A stretch of 64,000 nucleotides of DNA. Origin: Bacteroidales bacterium. Its GTDB lineage: Bacteria; Bacteroidota; Bacteroidia; Bacteroidales; UBA932. A model generated the notes under the pieces. It worked only from the letters and a program-made list of their open reading frames with translations. It searched no databases and was not told the DNA's origin. Location of the stretch: NCBI GenBank assembly GCA_017962165.1, contig JAGCVW010000021.1:1-64000 (forward strand). The letters are read 5' to 3'. This document shows positions 1-6,867 of this stretch, piece after piece. The position numbers and the translations under genes were made by a program. Within the stretch, counting starts at the first letter, position 1; every line of letters begins with the position of its first letter.

Positions 1-251
1 ACGATGAGTGGGCATATGCCTCACATCCCTGGACACACATCGACTTCCTTCTTTTTGATACAGTCTCTCATAAAGCAAGACTTGCTATTGAAGTTGATGG
101 GACACAATACCACCGAGCAGACTCTAACCAAGGACAACGCGACACTATGAAAAACCAAATCCTTGCTGCCATTGGCCTTCCTCTCCTTAGACTAAGCACG
201 GCCGGTGCACAGGAGAAGGAACAGATTATCAGAGCGTTGATACAACAATAA
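1..251 (+). CDS. C-terminal part of a DUF2726/DUF559-like nuclease-fold protein (5' end outside window)
   Basis: An open frame enters from the window edge (first full codon at base 3) and stops at 249-251. The visible 82 residues carry a hydrophobic beta strand, then AIEVDG, then TQYHR, a QGQRDTMKN helix and the ending GLPLLR. This order (strand, E-V-D-G, Q..D..K, GIPLLR) is that of DUF2726-type and Vsr/DUF559-type domains, which have the PD-(D/E)XK nuclease fold. The partners and substrate of these small domains are mostly unknown; some sit in mobile regions. Only the C-terminal domain is visible, so the rest of the protein cannot be described. A DUF2726 assignment fits better than DUF559 because of the IDFLLFD segment, but I cannot separate them firmly. 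Confidence 0.6.
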   Translation, partial: DEWAYASHPWTHIDFLLFDTVSHKARLAIEVDGTQYHRADSNQGQRDTMKNQILAAIGLPLLRLSTAGAQEKEQIIRALIQQ

Positions 252-482
252 TAGTTCTACTCTAACGGCTCTAGTACTCGCCCGCGGTGCAGCAGTTTGC
301 CCCGGGCGGACCTGTCCACCCTCGGACAGGGGCAGGGGGTCGGCGTCCGTCCTAGACGAGTTATCGCGTAGCGATGACGATGGATAGGATGGAAGGGGCC
401 GGAAGGAGCCGCAGGCGACTGGAGTTCCGCACGGGGCAACTGCTGACCGCGGCAGCGATGTAAACCACCTAACTACTTGAGT
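252..482. repeat. GC-rich structured repeat element, copy 1 (core 284-450)
   Basis: No gene is supported here. Bases 284-303 and 433-450 form imperfect terminal inverted repeats (GCGG..CAGCAGTT(T)GCCCC against GGGGCAACTGCTGACCGC). Inside is a perfect hairpin CCTGTCC / GGACAGG at about 311-330 and a GGAAGGGGCCGGAAGGAGC block near 391-409. A second copy with the same order of blocks lies at 58597-58762. Both are about 166 bp. The arms of each copy differ in sequence but stay complementary, which points to a selected fold. No transposase is associated. Confidence 0.65.
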
Positions 483-530
483 GTCAAGACTTTCGAGTCT
501 TGACTTTTTTGTTGGGAGGTGGTATCTTTG
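483..530 (+). promoter_or_regulatory. Promoter with palindrome, upstream of the 555-1043 gene
   Basis: A perfect inverted repeat (GTCAAGACT, loop TTCG, AGTCTTGAC, 483-504) is followed by TATCTTTG (523-530), which fits the Bacteroidetes -7 box TAnnTTTG. The TTG inside the right arm (500-502) is 20 bp upstream, the right spacing for the -33 box, so the palindrome overlaps the -33 site. GTAAACCA and AACTACTTGA blocks precede it. The same arrangement recurs at 2025-2072. The hairpin is followed by a T run (505-510), so it could also act as a terminator for upstream transcription. Confidence 0.7.
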
Positions 531-554
531 CAGGAGAGATTTGTGACGAAGGCT

Positions 555-1043
555 ATGGAAGACTTCATTCTATACAAGACCTTCCCGTCAGGAGGAACGG
601 TGTCTTTGATGACCGGATTGGATAAGACCAGTTCGGATTATAGTGATTTGATTTCTATAGCATGTTGTTTTGCCCGGGCGGGGAGATATGTTATTATTCT
701 CTCCCCCGTTCACTATAAAGATCAATTATATGGTCAGGTATTCGGGAAACTAATAGGAACAAAGTATGAGCGCAAATGCCCAGACTTGCTTATTGATGGG
801 AATTACTATGAGTATGAGAGTTATGAGCGTCCTTATGAAACGGAAAAAATAGAAAGAATGATTTCCAGAGGGGCCAAACAAGCTCCAAATATAGTGATAG
901 ATATACGAGAATCGTCGGTAACGAAAAAAGTAATTAGTACTAAGGTTCAGAGACTAAAGGGGCAGAAGAGTTTTAAAAGCCAGATTGCTAGTGTCTGGAT
1001 TTACGATGGGGAAAATGTTGAGATGGTTTATAAAAACAAATAG
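555..1043 (+). CDS. Small protein with probable CdiA-C/BECR-type nuclease domain
   Basis: A 162-aa soluble protein with no signal peptide. The frame is open from 519, but that start would lie inside the promoter box (523-530), so the ATG at 555 is preferred. The C-terminal half has the pattern KCPDLLIDGNYYEYESY, then an IERMISRGAKQ helix, then NIVIDIR and a final strand with W-I-Y. From memory this resembles the CdiA C-terminal tRNase-like (BECR-fold) proteins found in Bacteroidales mobile elements; the D/K/Y-rich strand would carry the active site. No immunity or antitoxin gene follows, and a terminator-like hairpin covers the stop codon. Codon use is AT-rich compared with core genes, suggesting transfer. 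The family assignment is inference. Confidence 0.55.
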   Translation: MEDFILYKTFPSGGTVSLMTGLDKTSSDYSDLISIACCFARAGRYVIILSPVHYKDQLYGQVFGKLIGTKYERKCPDLLIDGNYYEYESYERPYETEKIERMISRGAKQAPNIVIDIRESSVTKKVISTKVQRLKGQKSFKSQIASVWIYDGENVEMVYKNK

Positions 1044-1122
1044 AGGGGCGTCCCCCTCTATCTCTGCGGAGAATTCTCTCCGGCTCACCAATCCGTAGAA
1101 TGGCTAAAATCATTGCTGATTC
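1031..1122 (-). ncRNA. Predicted small RNA A
   Basis: The minus strand has a complete promoter: TTTG (1158-1155), exactly 19 bp, TATATTTG (1135-1128). About 90 nt downstream is an intrinsic terminator (TAGAGGGG / CCCCTCTA at 1060-1041, then TTTGTTTTT). The RNA contains TCTACGGATT near 1092-1101 and a GGAGA/TCTCC hairpin, and no open frame of useful length. It shares TTTTAGC.A.TCTACGGATT.GTG with small RNA B. The terminator overlaps the stop codon of the convergent 555-1043 gene and may serve both strands. Confidence 0.6.
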
Positions 1123-1241
1123 TGATGCAAATATAATGGGAATTCCTGGATTTCCAAATACAGAAGCACCTTTTTGACTAGTCTCCCCTGCCCACGAGAA
1201 CTGACTGACTTACCCGCCATGGCAGCTGCTGACCGCGGCGC

Positions 1242-1288
1242 CAATGTAAACCATATAACTTCTTTGATGTTTTGGGGCGGTATCTTTG
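1242..1288 (+). promoter_or_regulatory. Degenerate third copy of the GTAAACCA/TATCTTTG promoter
   Basis: ATGTAAACCATATAACT (1244-1260) followed by TATCTTTGCGGGAA (1281-1294) matches the promoters at 483-530 and 2025-2072. The palindrome is missing and no -33 TTG stands at the right distance. Only very short frames follow (up to about 24 codons from 1361), so this looks like the relic of a third gene unit. Confidence 0.5.
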
Positions 1289-1490
1289 CGGGAAGGAAAA
1301 ATGTATGTGTGGATATGAAAGAAGATAAAAGGTGAGATAGAATGGTCACCAGTCGTCATATGAATTCATTGTTGGTGTGTGCAAAAAATGCACATACCAA
1401 GAAATATGGCCGCAGGGAAGGATTAGGACGGTGACCTTTTCTGCGGAGCGGAAGTATGGGGAAACGCATGCCGACACAATCGGTCCCTAT

Positions 1491-1561
1491 AAAAAAACGG
1501 TAGGGAGCATGGCTCCCCCCGCAGCACGAATCCGTAGACTCGCTAAAACCTAAATGGTTCT
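1491..1561 (-). ncRNA. Predicted small RNA B
   Basis: A minus-strand TATATTTG box (1574-1567) has only a weak -33. About 70 nt downstream is a strong intrinsic terminator: GGGAGC, loop CAT, GCTCCC (1517-1503), then ACCG and seven T (1497-1491). The body shares TTTTAGC.A.TCTACGGATT.GTG with small RNA A but has a different terminator, so A and B look like paralogous RNAs with exchanged 3' hairpins. No coding frame was seen. Confidence 0.6.
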
Positions 1562-1636
1562 ATGTACAAATATAGAGGTTATACTTGAAATCGCGAATTT
1601 AGATGAAAAGGAATTCAATAATGGATACCTCAATAT

Positions 1637-1728
1637 AAAAAAGACCAGATAGGCGGTGGGGTTGAACCACTCATTCTCACGCAGAGCCGAATTGTTCCAC
1701 AAATATATCGGTGTCTACCTACGGTCCT
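1637..1728 (-). ncRNA. Predicted small RNA C
   Basis: The minus strand has TTTG (1764-1761), exactly 19 bp, TATATTTG (1741-1734). The transcript would begin GACC..TAGG and end ..CCTA..GGTC just before a run of six T (1642-1637), so its two ends can pair. Inside is a GTGG/CCAC hairpin. This resembles a rod-like regulatory RNA, but no named family was recognised. Its -33 box overlaps the terminator of RNA D, so the two units are packed end to end. Confidence 0.5.
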
Positions 1729-1760
1729 TGATGCAAATATAGATGTAATTTCTATTTCTT

Positions 1761-1900
1761 CAAACAAAACAGGAGGCCAAATGACCTCCTGTAAGATTTG
1801 CCCCAAGACTACGTGGCGGAATTACTTCAAAAGCGAGGGCCTCGCGGGCGGGGACTTTTGCGCGACTCGATTACCCATCCGTATCACGGTGTTACTGTCT
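1761..1900 (-). ncRNA. Predicted structured RNA D (about 138 nt)
   Basis: A TATATTTG box lies at 1913-1906 on the minus strand (no clear -33). The end is a strong terminator, ACAGGAGG / CCTCCTGT (1792-1769), then TTTTGTTTG. The body contains GCGCAAAAGTCCCCGCC and, near the 3' end, GGGGCAA. AGAC..CGTG at the 5' end can pair with CACG..GTCT before GGGGCAA. The same core, spacing and end pairing occur in RNA E, although the rest of the sequence and the terminators differ. Confidence 0.6.
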
Positions 1901-2024
1901 CGCTGCAAATATAGATGTTTTTCTATAAATAAGGTCAGATGAGCGAAAAAACCTCACGCCCTTGCCAATCGGTGTGAAAATCAGGCATTTTTCACACCGA
2001 CGTAAACCATACAACTACTTGATA

Positions 2025-2072
2025 GTCAAGACTTTCGAGTCTTGACGCGTGTAGTAATATGGGGTATCTTTG
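2025..2072 (+). promoter_or_regulatory. Promoter with palindrome, upstream of the 2089-2520 gene
   Basis: The same 22-bp palindrome as at 483-504 (2025-2046) is followed by TATCTTTG (2065-2072). The TTG in its right arm (2042-2044) is again 20 bp from the -7 box. GTAAACCA and AACTACTTGA precede it here too. Unlike the first copy there is no T run after the hairpin, which argues that the palindrome is an operator and not a terminator. Confidence 0.7.
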
Positions 2073-2088
2073 CGGGAAAAAACAAAAT

Positions 2089-2520
2089 ATGGAAAACAAA
2101 CAATTAAGGTACGAGATTCCTTGCGGGGATACTCCGGAAGAAATACGGCAAAGGGCGCAAGTCATTGTTCGATATTATCAAGATTGGAAACTGGCACATC
2201 CCACTCAAAGAGTGTATAATCACTGTTTAAGAGATTATATAAACGTTCGGAAAATATCTATAACAGAAACGGCCAGACATGCAGCAAAGTCTTACCTATC
2301 TACATTGGCCGTTATGCAATTAGATGGGATATTAGCTTGTGCCAAGAAAGTGCGAGTTGGGAAACCGCGTGACAGATCAAATCAGGCAAAGTTTCAAGCT
2401 ATGATAGTGATGGTGCATGATTGTCCAGGAGTGGGCAGAGTTAAGTTGATGGTTGGTGTTAGGTTTAAGACTCACATCAAGATACAGTATTGCATCACAG
2501 CAATCGATATTCTGGATTAA
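2089..2520 (+). CDS. Small protein, probable BECR-type (phage/mobile element) nuclease-like domain
   Basis: A 143-aa soluble protein. An upstream in-frame ATG (2059) lies before the promoter box, so the start at 2089 (ATGGAAAAC) is chosen. The middle carries an ETARHAAKSYLSTLAVMQLD helix, the C-terminal part GRVKLMVGV and VQYC-like QYCITAI. I recall similar proteins in Bacteroidales mobile elements, sometimes annotated as Barnase-EndoU-ColicinE5-RelE-like; that assignment is uncertain. It shares no clear sequence with the 555-1043 protein, yet has a near-identical promoter, suggesting joint regulation. No partner gene follows. The stop codon runs into the terminator of the convergent RNA E. 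Confidence 0.5.
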   Translation: MENKQLRYEIPCGDTPEEIRQRAQVIVRYYQDWKLAHPTQRVYNHCLRDYINVRKISITETARHAAKSYLSTLAVMQLDGILACAKKVRVGKPRDRSNQAKFQAMIVMVHDCPGVGRVKLMVGVRFKTHIKIQYCITAIDILD

Positions 2521-2658
2521 AAAAGCACCCCGCTTTAGCGAGGTGCTAAGCTTGCCCCAGTCTTGCGCGGTCAGAGTTTACTCTAAAAGAGTGAGCCTTC
2601 CCGGGGCGGGGACTTTTGCGCGCAGTGAATAGCTCTCACATACCGCGTCTTATCAGAC
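2519..2658 (-). ncRNA. Predicted structured RNA E (about 138 nt), paralogue of D
   Basis: The minus-strand promoter is TTTG (2694-2691), 19 bp, TACCTTTG (2671-2664). The terminator is AGCACC..CGC, loop TAAA, GCG..GGTGCT (2547-2524), then six T. The body has GCGCAAAAGTCCCCGCC, identical to D over 17 nt, and GGGGCAA before the terminator. 5' AGTCT..CGCGGT can pair with 3' ACCGCG..AGACT, giving the same closing stem as D with different bases, which is covariation-like evidence for a real RNA. Confidence 0.65.
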
Positions 2659-2755
2659 TAATGCAAAGGTAAGCCGTTTTTTCTGATTTCCAAAAATAGA
2701 TGCGCCTTTTGCCGAGCCTCCCCAGCCCTCGAGTGCGCGGTAGGACGGTGACCAT

Positions 2756-3181
2756 CTACCCTTGTAGGGCGGCGAGAAGCTCGGGGATGGTCCCGGCGAC
2801 ATGGTCGAATAGCTTGTACATGAGCTCGGGCTCCCCCATCTCGGGGATGTAGGCGATGACCCGCTTCCCCGTTCCGGCCATCCAGCCCGCTTCCGTGTGG
2901 GCACTCCGGCCGCACGGCAGAACGATCACGCACGTGTCGGCCCACTTCAGGGCCTCCATGTCGGCAGCGAACTGCCGCTCCGCGAGCGGATGGTGTAGGC
3001 CTTCGGCATATTGGTCGAACGTCCAAGTGGGGGCGTTCGGGTCGATGTCGGTCCAGTGGAAGCCGGCTCCGCCATGGGGCGGATTGCGGAAGTCATAGAC
3101 TTCGTGGCCTTCTTCCCGAAGGCGCTTTACCACTTCCGGGTAATAGGAATTTCTCCAGCTGGAGGCGAGGTAAATTTTCAT
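2756..3181 (-). CDS. DUF4406 / nucleoside 2-deoxyribosyltransferase-like protein
   Basis: A 141-aa protein. It begins MKIYLASSWRN, has a WADTCVIVLPCGRSAHTE segment followed by GWMAGTGK, and ends in a helix. This is the Rossmann-like fold of nucleoside 2-deoxyribosyltransferases, DUF4406 and TIR-like domains: a first strand with Y-L-A-S, and a glutamate (here in SAHTEAGW) that in the deoxyribosyltransferases is the nucleophile. Such short stand-alone forms are common in phages and islands, where the substrate is rarely known. The promoter at 3270-3300 leaves a leader of about 84 nt. GC content is higher than that of the neighbouring nuclease-like genes. Confidence 0.6.
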   Translation of the reverse strand: MKIYLASSWRNSYYPEVVKRLREEGHEVYDFRNPPHGGAGFHWTDIDPNAPTWTFDQYAEGLHHPLAERQFAADMEALKWADTCVIVLPCGRSAHTEAGWMAGTGKRVIAYIPEMGEPELMYKLFDHVAGTIPELLAALQG

Positions 3182-3262
3182 TATGGCGGTAATTGTTATT
3201 TGTACCCCTGCAGAGCGTTCTCCTTATCGAGCGTCTGTAGTCTCATCGCACGGTCCTGTAGT

Positions 3263-3300
3263 ATTTGCGCAAATATAGATGCGAGGGAACAACTTTCAAA
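3263..3300 (-). promoter_or_regulatory. Promoter of the DUF4406-type gene, with dyad
   Basis: On the minus strand TTTG (3300-3297), 19 bp, TATATTTG (3277-3270). The -7 box is half of a perfect dyad TATTTGCGCAAATA (3263-3276), so a repressor site may overlap the start of transcription. A second, oppositely directed promoter begins 15 bp away at 3315. Confidence 0.65.
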
Positions 3301-3314
3301 AATTGTTTAATGTT

Positions 3315-3427
3315 TTTGGAGGAATGAGATTATTCTCTATATTTGCAGAAGCATTTGATAACAGTCCCGTTTAGGCGGGGTTATTGGACATTATCTAGGC
3401 ATTTCAGTTTGAGCTGAAATGCCTTTT
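3315..3427 (+). ncRNA. Predicted small RNA or leader H with promoter
   Basis: The plus strand has TTTG (3315-3318), 19 bp, TATATTTG (3338-3345). The transcript would start near 3350 and contains a first stem (ATAAC.CCCG / CGGGGTTAT, about 3357-3384) and a perfect 10-bp stem GGCATTTCAG / CTGAAATGCC (3398-3423) followed by TTTT. It may be a 78-nt small RNA, or the attenuator leader of the 66-aa gene that begins 25 bp later. Confidence 0.55.
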
Positions 3428-3448
3428 GACATCTTAAGAGGGCCGGTG

Positions 3449-3649
3449 ATGTACAGCTACACTCTCCAGAACATCTTGATCAAGTCCAATAATTATTATC
3501 AAATGCACAAGATTGTTCGCTTGAAAGTGAGCTTGGACTATGAGTTCGAAGCTCCCAGATTTGTCAAAGTGAAGGCGCACAAACGCACTCTCGGAGACAA
3601 AACAGTAAAGGTGCGTTCATATTACCGACGCGTTTTAATACGCAAGTAA
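3449..3649 (+). CDS. Small basic protein of unknown function
   Basis: A 66-aa protein rich in K, R and Y, with no signal peptide or membrane segment. The frame stays open upstream to 3419, but that start is within the hairpin of RNA H, and the ATG at 3449 has a GAGGGCCGG stretch before it. The last 30 residues (VKVKAHKRTLGDKTVKV.., ending YYRRVLIRK) could bind nucleic acid. I do not recognise the family. A terminator hairpin follows at 3699-3720. The gene sits between predicted small RNAs, so it could be an RNA-binding partner, but that is only a positional guess. Confidence 0.45.
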   Translation: MYSYTLQNILIKSNNYYQMHKIVRLKVSLDYEFEAPRFVKVKAHKRTLGDKTVKVRSYYRRVLIRK

Positions 3650-3698
3650 TTATTGAACGACAGTCCTTACCAGGACTTCTAATTCACCCATCGGTCCC

Positions 3699-3728
3699 GG
3701 GGAGAGTTTCGGCTCTCCCCATTTCTTT
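3699..3728 (+). terminator. Intrinsic terminator after the 66-aa gene
   Basis: GGGGAGAG, loop TTTCGG, CTCTCCCC (3699-3720), then ATTTCTTT. A smaller hairpin AGTCC/GGACT precedes it at 3662-3677. Confidence 0.7.
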
Positions 3729-4021
3729 CCTGCCCTCGAGTGAGCGGTAGGGCGTTGACCTCAAACGTCAAAGCCAATTATTATCTGTGATGAGAACTGG
3801 AGAAGTTATCAACTTGTGCAACAATTGCACATGTTCAAAAAGAGAGGTTTGTTTAACGTCTCGTGGGCAAGGTGCTAATTTAGTGGGATTTCTTGGATTT
3901 CCAAAAATGAAACACCCCAACCGGAGTTGGGGTGAGGTCGGTACGAGCCGCCCGAAGCGTAACACGTTCCAAATATTCTACCGCAAATATAAGGGGAATT
4001 CTTGGATTTCCAAAAATAAAA
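3729..4021 (-). ncRNA. Predicted small RNA F (transcript about 3978-3903)
   Basis: The promoter is TTTG (4014-4011), 19 bp, TATATTTG (3991-3984) on the minus strand. The terminator is CACCCCAAC / GTTGGGGTG (3934-3913) followed by TTTCATTTTT. The body has a GC, TTCG, GGC hairpin region and GGTA..TACC ends. The upstream block GGGAATTC(C/T)TGGATTTCCAAA is shared with the promoter of RNA A; a further copy near 3887-3908 has a poor -7 box (TAAATTAG). It is not a tRNA: no T-loop GGTTCRA and no CCA end. The remainder of 3729-3902 holds no gene that I can support. Confidence 0.55.
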
Positions 4022-4044
4022 CACCCCAGGCTCTGCCCGGGGTG
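4012..4044 (-). terminator. Intrinsic terminator of the metG-ompA operon
   Basis: On the minus strand CACCCC..GGC / GCC..GGGGTG (4044-4022), then TTTTATTTTT. It lies 38 bp after the stop of the OmpA-like gene and its T tract overlaps the -33 box of RNA F. Confidence 0.75.
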
Positions 4045-4082
4045 AGGAGTGGAATAACCGGGCATGACCCGGTGTGCCGGAA

Positions 4083-4763
4083 CTACTTGAGGGTGCCGGC
4101 TTCGACGGCCTTGACCATGTCTTCGTTCGCGGTGATGTAGATTTCAACGCGGCGGTTCTTGGCGCGGCCTTCTTCGGTCTCGTTGTCAGCGACGGGCTTG
4201 TTGAAGGAAAGACCCTGGGCATAGAGGTGGTTGGGATCCATGCCGTTCTTCTTGAGCTCCTTCTTCACAGCGTCAGCCCTCTTCTGGGAAACTTTCTCGT
4301 TAGCCTCGGCAGTACCGACATTGTCGGTGTGGCCAAGGATGGTGATGTCGGCATTCGCGCCGAGATCCTCGAGGACAGTTGCGAACTGCTTGAGGGACTC
4401 CTTGGACTCCTCGCTGAGAGCGGTGGAGTTGAAGTCGAAGAGGATACCGCTGGAGAAGGTCACCTTGATGGCCTCAAAGCCGTTGGCGTCGGTGATGGTC
4501 TCGATCTTTGCAGCCTCGATCTTCTCGAGTTCCTTAGCTTTCTTGTCCATGACAGCGCCGATGGTGGTTCCGGTTGCAGCACCTGCTGCGCCGCCGATGG
4601 CAGCACCCTTGAGAGCGCCTTCGGCATCACCGGTGATGAGGTAGCCGATGCCTGCACCTACTGCAGCGCCGCCTACGGCACCTGCGAACAGGCCTTTGAG
4701 AGTTGCACAAGACGGAGCGAGAAGCATTGCCGCTGCCGCCACGATGAGTAAACCTTTTTTCAT
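4083..4763 (-). CDS. OmpA-family lipoprotein with glycine-zipper domain
   Basis: A 226-aa outer-membrane lipoprotein. The signal peptide ends in the lipobox LAPSC (Cys19). Residues 25-75 form a Gly/Ala-rich glycine-zipper stretch (GAVGGAAVGAGIGYLI and repeats) that can insert into or span a membrane. The C-terminal 110 residues are an OmpA peptidoglycan-binding domain with ILFDFNST, ILGHTDNVGT and QKRADAVKKEL. By family it ties the outer membrane to peptidoglycan. It follows metG by 40 bp and ends the operon at an intrinsic terminator. It resembles YiaD-type proteins; the symbol is left open because several paralogues exist in Bacteroidales. Confidence 0.85.
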   Translation of the reverse strand: MKKGLLIVAAAAMLLAPSCATLKGLFAGAVGGAAVGAGIGYLITGDAEGALKGAAIGGAAGAATGTTIGAVMDKKAKELEKIEAAKIETITDANGFEAIKVTFSSGILFDFNSTALSEESKESLKQFATVLEDLGANADITILGHTDNVGTAEANEKVSQKRADAVKKELKKNGMDPNHLYAQGLSFNKPVADNETEEGRAKNRRVEIYITANEDMVKAVEAGTLK

Positions 4764-4803
4764 AATGTTAAAAAATTAATATGGTTGATAAAAATGTGTC
4801 CTT

Positions 4804-6867
4804 TTAACCAACTGTAGCTCCATTAACTAATGCCTCCTCCGGCGCGACTATACGCATCTTGCCGTCGCCCTGGCGGGCCATAAGGATCATACCCTTAGAC
4901 TCGATGCCGCGGATGACGCGCGGAGCGAGGTTAGCGAGGATGCATATCTGCTTGCCGACCATCTGCTCGGGAGTGTAGTACTCGGCGATGCCGCTTACTA
5001 TCACCCTCTTGTCGATGCCGGTATCGATCGTAAGTTTCAGTAACTTGTCTGTCTTCGGGACGCGCTCGGCCTCAAGGACGGTAGCGGTACGGATGTCCAT
5101 AGCCTCGAACTGGTCGAAGGTGATCTCGGCCTTCTGCGGCTCGACGCGGGCGGCGGCCTCCGCGGCTGCGGCGGCTCGGGCTTCAGCCTCCTTCGCGGCG
5201 CGGATGGCCGCAAGGCGGTCGAGCTGCTTCTGGATAGACTCGTCCTCGATCTTCTCGAAAAGAAGCTGCGCCTCGCCGATCTGATGGCCGGCAGAGAGAA
5301 TATCGGAGCGGCCGAGCAGATCCCACTCGAGCGGAGAATCTATCATCCCCCGCAGCTTCTCCGCGGCGAACGGAGTGAACGGCTCGAAGGCGATCGCGAG
5401 GTCTGCGCAGATCTGCAGGCAGACATTCAGGATAGTCCCAGTGCGGGCCATGTCGGTCTTCGCAACCTTCCAGGGCTCAGTGTCGGAGATGTATTTGTTG
5501 CCCACGCGGGCCATGCTCATTGCGTCTTTCAACGCCTCGCGGAAGCGGTAGTTCTCAAGGTTCTTTTCAAGAGACTCGCGCAGGGCAGGGATCTCGGCCA
5601 GAGCCTCTTTGTCGATAGCCTCAAGCGCGCCCACGGGCGGGACCTTGCCCTCGAAATACTTATGGGTCAGCACCACGGCGCGGTTCACGAAGTTGCCGAA
5701 GATAGCCACCAGCTCGGAGTTGTTCCTTACCTGGAAGTCCTTCCAGCTGAAATCATTGTCCTTAGTTTCCGGAGCGTTGGCGGTAAGCACATAACGGAGC
5801 ACGTCCTGCTTGCCGGGGAAATCCTCCAGATACTCATGGGCCCAGACAGCCCAGCCGCGAGAGGTCGAAATCTTGTCGCCCTCGAGGTTAAGGAACTCGT
5901 TGGAGGGGACGTTGTCCGGCAGGATGTAGCCGTCACCGTAGGCCTTCAGCATCGACGGGAACACGATGCAGTGGAACACGATGTTGTCCTTGCCGATGAA
6001 GTGGACGAGCTTGGTATCCTCGCTCTTCCACCACTTCTCCCAGTCGTTCGGAAGCAGCTGCCTTGTGTTGCTGATATAGCCGATTGGGGCGTCGAACCAG
6101 ACGTAGAGGACTTTGCCTTCAGCGCCCTCGACGGGCACGGGCACGCCCCAGTCCAGGTCACGCGTGACCGCACGGGGCTGCAGGCCGCCGTCGAGCCAGC
6201 TCTTTACCTGACCGTAGACGTTTGACCTCCACTCTTTGTGGCCTTCGAGTATCCACTCGCGCAGCCACTGCTCATAGTCCTGCAGAGGGAGATACCAGTG
6301 AGTAGTCTCCTTCTTGACGGGCTCTGCGCCGCTGAGCTTCGACTTGGGGTTGATCAGTTCTTCGGGGCTCAGGGTACTTCCGCACTTCTCGCACTGGTCG
6401 CCATAGGCGTCGGGGTTGCCGCACTTGGGGCAGGTTCCCACTATATAGCGGTCTGCAAGGAAGGTCTTAGCCTCCGGGTCGTAGTACTGCTCGGTAGTCT
6501 TCGTGATGAACTTCCCTGAATCGTACAACTTCTTGAAAAACTCCGAGGCGGTCTCTTCGTGGATCTTCGAGGAGGTCCTTCCGTAGACGTCGAAGTTGAT
6601 GCCGAAGCCCTTGAAGGACTCGGAGATTATCTTGTCGTATTTGTCGACTATGTCCTGAGGTGAGCAGCCTTGCTGACGGGCCTTAATAGTAATAGGCACG
6701 CCGTGCTCGTCGCTGCCGCACACGAACAGCACCTCGCGGCCGCGCATCCTCAGATACCTGACGTAGATGTCGGCGGGAACATACACTCCCGCTAGATGTC
6801 CGATATGCACGGGGCCGTTGGCGTAGGGCAGGGCCGCTGTCACTAAGGTTCTTTTGTAGTTCTTCAT
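4804..6867 (-). CDS. metG: Methionyl-tRNA synthetase
   Basis: A 687-aa class I aminoacyl-tRNA synthetase that charges tRNA-Met. Motifs: HIGH at residues 21-24 (GPVHIGHL), a zinc knuckle CPKC..CEKC (Cys146, 149, 159, 162), and KISTS at 332-336 in place of KMSKS, a form usual for this type of MetRS. After an Ala/Glu-rich linker (about 560-580) the C-terminal domain ([14 protein letters not shown]..) is the dimerising tRNA-binding domain. The start codon overlaps the dnaG stop (ATGA), which suggests translational coupling. Length and domain order are typical. Confidence 0.97.

Follow-up and report, generated by a model that had tools for sequence, protein, structure and literature searches.

Most arrayed small predicted RNA genes in a Bacteroidales contig belong to families that face predicted nuclease genes tail-to-tail

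What is the role of a dense run of small promoter-terminator units interspersed with small nuclease-like genes near the start of a contig from a gut Bacteroidales bacterium? The units lie between positions 1031 and 4014 of contig JAGCVW010000021.1 (assembly GCA_017962165.1), the first 64 kb of which, hereafter the window, were analyzed; the genome is incomplete (1.24 Mb, 68.8% complete). A sequence-only reading had proposed six minus-strand units (A to F) and one plus-strand unit (H) as an array of small RNAs (sRNAs) and as a candidate undescribed regulatory or defense-related system. Our analysis supports that proposal, with defense still no more than a candidate role, as RNA families that lie tail-to-tail, here or elsewhere, with predicted nuclease genes account for five of the six minus-strand units. 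In genome comparisons, unit E pairs with the gene at 2089 to 2520 and unit A with the gene at 555 to 1043, pairings that recur in many genomes, and the predicted RNAs have conserved, covarying structures with the Bacteroidetes promoter motif ahead of them. We read the array as a set of small predicted RNA genes, at least five of them from such families, whose RNAs probably serve as antitoxins by binding and blocking the nucleases, and we give this reading a probability of about 0.72.

The Bacteroides sigma factor consensus comprises a TAnnTTTG box and a TTTG near position -33, as given in an excerpt of PMC7366714. The exact pattern TTTG-N19-TAnnTTTG occurs six times on the two strands of the 64 kb, and every occurrence is inside the array (1158 to 4014): on the plus strand at 3315 (H) and on the minus strand at 4014 (F), 3300 (a DUF4406-like gene), 2694 (E), 1764 (C), and 1158 (A). 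The 19-bp spacing reported earlier for these six is thus borne out. Across 500 Markov-1 sequences of region 1031 to 4014, exact promoters averaged 0.016 per sequence and never exceeded 1, and TAnnTTTG boxes averaged 2.1 and reached at most 8, compared with 12 boxes observed. Terminator-like sites are enriched threefold within positions 1 to 5000 (15 versus 5.0 expected), and the clustering of promoter boxes and terminators is real. Units B and D, which the earlier list of 19-bp spacings omits, have the -7 box and lack the exact -33 TTTG. The boxes of the minus-strand units lie at 1135, 1574, 1741, 1913, 2671, and 3991. The units had also been described as packed end to end; a terminator does reach the next -33 box from D to C and from an OmpA-like gene to F, whereas A and B, B and C, and E are spaced apart. 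Fold z scores of single units against shuffles are mixed (A, -4.8; B, -4.5; H, -4.9; E, -2.6; F, -1.6; D, -1.3; C, -0.3). An Rfam search, proposed earlier as a check, found no family at gathering score anywhere in the window and, at relaxed E value across 1 to 4800, chance-level matches only, none of them credible; nine partner loci gave no match at gathering score except one RNase P.

Unit E (2519 to 2663, minus strand; -33 at 2694, -7 at 2671, terminator at 2547 to 2524) meets tail-to-tail a plus-strand predicted RNase toxin gene (2089 to 2520; 143 amino acids from ATG, 153 from 2059) with an LPD3/BECR-like product, of which it is the predicted antitoxin. It belongs, together with unit D (1761 to 1905, minus strand), a solitary RNA, to a pseudoknot family designated R1. 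The DNA search covered 149 genomes of the same family; relatives of unit D appear in other genomes at 75 to 95% identity, including a copy in G103 that is 95% identical across 148 nt, and unit E and its facing gene are conserved jointly in locus L037. Ten sequences, D and E among them, align as one RNA of ~145 nt with the motif GYGCAAAAGUCCCCGCC ... UUGGGGCAA. The covariance model built from these ten, to which D and E score 151.5 and 111.5 bits as members of its own building set, gives 95 hits, spread over 66 of 398 genomes. Analysis was confined to the top 89 of these (85 distinct rows), and the six weakest (E values of 4.5e-4 to 0.009) were left out.

Viewed from the gene, the arrangement is equally regular. 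Homologs of gene 2089-2520 meet R1 tail-to-tail, and among the best 80 of 187 stretches encoding the protein, labeled mostly as Bacteroidales or its families (many from rumen or gut, with one Lachnospiraceae label and some Candidatus names), R1 lies on the opposite strand at the 3' end of the gene in 67. In a test independent of the RNA, a convergent promoter box is present at 74 of the 75 loci with enough flank, compared with 7 to 9% at shifted minus-strand positions and 15/75 when the plus strand is read over the identical interval. The DUF4406-like gene of the same array, used as a negative control, has such a box at 2/17 loci. The flank counts exclude loci whose flanks were short or that gave no tblastn match (5 of 80 here, 3 of 24 and 2 of 20 in other sets). 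L282, the sole locus of the 75 to lack a box, adjoins sequence that is transposase-like by eye, and at L284 and L288 the box is present with an RNA unlike the others. At L122 (G361:C31) a weak R1 match lies ~105 nt from the convergent gene and has no promoter box; by eye, the end of that gene, with RNRIAHHEP, resembles an Abi_2/AbiF HEPN protein.

The helices of R1 covary strongly, with 92.2% of cells paired and both-sided changes numbering 417 versus 130 in shuffles, counts that rely on an alignment fitted to the same structure. The count for the CCCC/GGGG pseudoknot, which is absent from the model, is independent of that fit: 95.7% of cells are paired, with just three both-sided changes, and a compensated CCGC/GCGG version was seen by eye in eight further loci. 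The sequence-only reading would have been undone had its units proved to be parts of degraded protein genes; this is unlikely for D and E and for A and B, since their RNA structures covary, in the latter pair through a UACG hairpin.

A structured RNA whose distances track those of the protein, and without which the protein almost never occurs, at least as a convergent unit, could also be a cofactor or guide needed for protein activity, as in an RNA-guided or RNA-activated effector. Yet whereas the gene is almost never found without a convergent unit, the pseudoknot RNA is frequently found without an intact gene (42/89 R1 RNAs), and among matches to the UACG-hairpin model R3 (E value of ≤1e-4) 27 of 47 lie away from the gene, which a cofactor leaves unexplained. 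Inspection of the alignments revealed no variable guide-like stretch, and we consider such a role unlikely.

The 3' ends of RNA and gene overlap or almost touch in the terminator region, a geometry that would also suit a type I-like antisense RNA or a 3'-end regulator of the convergent mRNA. However, the RNA bodies show no excess complementarity to the translation start of their own gene (mean rank of 0.51 over 44 pairs, start region only), neither the conserved pseudoknot nor the conserved tetraloop structure falls within the overlap, and the RNA persists without the gene. Regulation of this kind is, in our judgment, very unlikely.

The protein family of gene 2089-2520 (alignment A3) shares a domain of ~135 residues with an invariant QYCIT near its end; T137 is an invariant residue. 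Matches to the family occur in 90 of 398 genomes (E value of ≤1e-6; some rows span only a helix-turn-helix [HTH] part), and the window protein has 3,116 matches in a large protein set (E value of ≤0.001). LPD3 (PF18798) scores 17.2 bits against the window protein, below the curated cutoff of 27, and matches 28 of 37 family members at an E value of ≤0.01 (best, 6.2e-6); PF18798 is carried by a few homologs among the 120 of the 3,116 matches listed. The BECR fold consists of a helix followed by a sheet of 4 to 5 strands, with Ser or Thr in strand 4 and often His in the helix, according to an excerpt of PMC5512222. A BECR-like RNase fold is predicted for this family, with weak support. Foldseek returned nothing at an E value of <0.001 for this protein or for that of gene 555-1043, and searches of plasmids, phages, and viral contigs gave no match to the 2089-2520 protein.

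An HTH match occurs in 19 of the 37 aligned members, and the named homologs among the 120 matches listed are XRE-family or HTH regulators or hypothetical proteins. Among the PADLOC models, the candidate PDC-M69A matches 18/37 members (best, 1.1e-5), whereas HTH_VI matches 8, possibly through the HTH. The regulator labels would fit ordinary trans-acting sRNAs accompanied by nontoxic proteins, either XRE-type RNA-binding regulators or sRNA-processing enzymes. But the HTH-less form, which is that of the window protein, still keeps the RNA, and the second and third protein families described below, with CdiA_C-type domains and no Pfam HTH match, have the same layout. We give this explanation very little credence and retain the RNA antitoxin as the preferred reading.

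A second branch of the gene faces a different convergent RNA, in which GUCA-GGGG-UUCG ... forms a hairpin with UGAC ... CGAGCCCC. Neither the GUCA/UGAC nor the GGGG/CCCC pairing varies in any of 13 rows, so that these pairs give no test of structure. A model of this RNA, R2, finds it in 16/20 and 13/17 fetched gene loci (that branch plus other gene matches), while L305 and L306 gave no R2 match despite a box and an RNA-like unit at each. At L306 (G104:C231), downstream of position 871, where the gene ends, a divergent homolog has a convergent RNA that holds, by eye, two tandem copies of ~26 nt, as type III antitoxins do.

Does the same arrangement extend to unrelated proteins? The plus-strand gene at 555 to 1043 (162 amino acids from ATG, 174 from the GTG at 519) is a predicted nuclease toxin gene of the CdiA_C, PD-(D/E)XK type. 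Its product matches CdiA_C (PF18451) above the Pfam cutoff and has a matching fold, and a PD-(D/E)XK (CdiA_C) nuclease fold, with invariant PD...ExE residues, is predicted for the family. A Pfam scan of 17 members (E value of ≤0.01) found CdiA_C, with no HTH match and no type III toxin family, and the window protein has no match among phages. Tail-to-tail with this gene lies its predicted antitoxin, unit A (1032 to 1127, minus strand; -33 at 1158, -7 at 1135), an R3 RNA whose terminator (1063 to 1038) overlaps the stop of the gene. In the corresponding set of 24 loci (3 left out), a convergent TAnnTTTG box is present in 20/21. Unit B (1491 to 1566, minus strand) is a solitary R3 RNA with lookalikes, likewise without a partner gene, in genomes G262, G240, and G390; at least one gene-distant R3 match, in G117, has no promoter box.

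Unit F (3908 to 3983, minus strand) is a solitary RNA of a third family, with the core UUACGCUUCGGGCGGCUCG. Among third-family loci with flank, that exact core is shared only by G027 and G136, and the gene opposite it there has 161 to 190 codons and a subthreshold CdiA_C match. Homologs of this partner protein, which has no Pfam HTH match, are present in 17 of 249 genomes, with no match in the window's own, incomplete genome, and third-family loci with flank have a convergent box in 16 of 18 cases. A promoter stretch, GGAAATCC...GAATTCCC, is repeated ahead of both A and F. In addition, at 3875 to 3882 on the minus strand, TAAATTAG follows a copy of the -33 region of F (GGAAATCCAAGAAATCCC) and resembles a decayed unit between F and the open reading frame (ORF) at 3419 to 3649.

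Some of these RNAs hint at tRNA. A perfect 5-pair T-arm is found in 4/18 third-family RNA strands, all at distant loci, versus 2/73 control windows, and in none of 89 R1 RNAs; ARAGORN called no tRNA in six third-family loci. Unit C (1630 to 1733, minus strand), which has an exact promoter and no fold signal and is placed in none of the RNA families, contains a T-arm-like hairpin, GUGG-UUCAACC-CCAC, of 4 pairs, one of four such matches within the window, and is possibly a tRNA-mimic antitoxin. Taken together, the third-family T-arms and unit C thinly suggest tRNA mimicry.

The window holds one RNA from each of three families (B, D, and F) without a partner gene, although partners may lie elsewhere in this incomplete genome. 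A search for the array in related genomes, also proposed earlier, showed that E and its facing gene are kept together and that mixed RNA clusters recur: R2, R3, R1 with its gene, and a further R1 lie inside 2.2 kb at L342 (G359); R3, R2, and R3 lie inside 0.5 kb at L344 (G390); and L341 (G308) has two R1 copies. If the RNAs are antitoxins, each would be transcribed in excess from a promoter of its own, fold, and occupy the RNA-binding site of the nuclease. Upon loss of the module, or when transcription by the host stops, the RNA would decay first, and the freed nuclease would cut cellular RNA, with tRNA as a first guess, so that growth would stop. Solitary B, D, and F may then be antidotes that have outlived their toxin or are kept against related toxins. 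A wider version of this idea, which we hold as tentative and rather doubtful, is that convergent RNA antitoxins directed at unrelated nucleases form a general class in Bacteroidales, some acting as tRNA-mimic decoys, and that the arrays are solitary antidotes against toxins the cell does not encode.

Unit H (3346 to 3428, plus strand) is placed in none of the RNA families and differs from the other units in being a structured leader, with a terminator-like hairpin, that precedes a small ORF on its own strand (3419 to 3649, plus strand; 76 codons, 66 from an inner ATG). This order of promoter, leader, hairpin, and ORF resembles that of type III systems or an attenuator. The ORF has no Pfam, PHROG, or PADLOC match. 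Similar DNA occurs in G084 and G091, and at L032 (G084) a similar promoter, leader, terminator-like hairpin, and small basic ORF follow one another, by eye, as at 3315 to 3649. The DUF4406-like/nucleoside deoxyribosyltransferase gene occupies 2756 to 3181 on the minus strand, behind its exact promoter. At the contig start, positions 1 to 251 encode the C-terminal part of a truncated DUF2726 nuclease-like protein. A palindrome-rich element of ~165 nt follows (284 to 451), with a copy of 87% identity toward the end of C1, another contig of this genome (L036:8605-8767), and partial copies in other genomes; the end of C1 and the start of the window, where the contig edge cuts the DUF2726 gene, may adjoin. 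The palindrome-like repeat had first suggested attC sites and integron cassettes, an idea that was dropped with no integrase or attC test run, RNA pairing being the better account of the array.

If the antitoxin reading is true, RNA antitoxins extend well past type III systems with ToxN-like toxins, to at least three protein groups (one LPD3/BECR-like and two CdiA_C related), each with a dedicated RNA, and such systems would have been hidden under a misleading label, that of HTH regulator or hypothetical protein for the named homologs of the first protein among those listed. They would offer a direct test of a single structured RNA blocking a PD-(D/E)XK or BECR-like nuclease. The boldest part is the array: solitary RNA antidotes gathered in this way would constitute an immunity repertoire of a new kind.

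How does this system relate to those already known? We found no earlier description in the literature searched, which comprised open-access papers, few subscription papers, and no preprints. Contact-dependent growth inhibition (CDI; CdiA-CT, PF18451/CdiI) shares the CdiA_C domain and fold with gene 555-1043. In contrast to the CDI layout, in which the toxin domain ends a large secreted CdiA accompanied by cdiB and cdiI, that gene is a stand-alone ORF of 162 to 174 amino acids with no CdiA stalk and with a convergent RNA unit where an immunity gene would be expected, as judged from the downstream side, the contig starting 518 bases upstream. A type I system requires an RNA antisense to the toxin mRNA; the 44 pairs gave no such signal at the translation start, and overlap is confined to the 3' ends. 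The Bacteroides thetaiotaomicron candidates, described as "reminiscent" of type I in an excerpt of PMC7366714, are likewise Bacteroidota loci where a presumed toxin gene has an RNA gene next to it, but as far as that excerpt goes their partners are divergent and are candidate short ORFs, whereas the genes here are convergent, nuclease type, and 140 to 260 codons long, with no antisense signal.

AbiF, as described in an excerpt of PMC12373285, is a toxic protein of the Abi_2/AbiD/F family neutralized by direct binding of an RCd22-type RNA, which lies upstream of the gene and has two repeated motifs. The RNAs proposed here would likewise bind and block their protein; Pfam scans of the partner proteins gave no Abi_2 match. 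Functionally closest, by analogy, appears to be type III toxin-antitoxin (ToxIN, CptIN, and TenpIN), in which a predicted RNase toxin is likewise accompanied by a structured noncoding RNA, pseudoknotted in one family here, that is thought to block it. As described in an excerpt of PMC5086642, a type III RNA precedes its toxin gene within a single operon that has one promoter, and it consists of repeats with a terminator after them. In the present case the RNA is convergent (boxes at 74/75 and 20/21 loci; R1 on the opposite strand in 67/80), has its own promoter motif, is often solitary, and is usually a single structured unit, as read from alignments A1, A4, and A6, with L306 the exception by eye. 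The proteins are LPD3/BECR-like or CdiA_C rather than ToxN-like, Pfam (E value of ≤0.01) giving LPD3 and HTH for 37 members and CdiA_C for 17, in place of ToxN, CptN, or TenpN. Because upstream same-operon RNA and a ToxN-like toxin are lacking and a repeat array is seen in one locus only, we do not class the system as a type III member and place it instead beside type III as its nearest functional counterpart.

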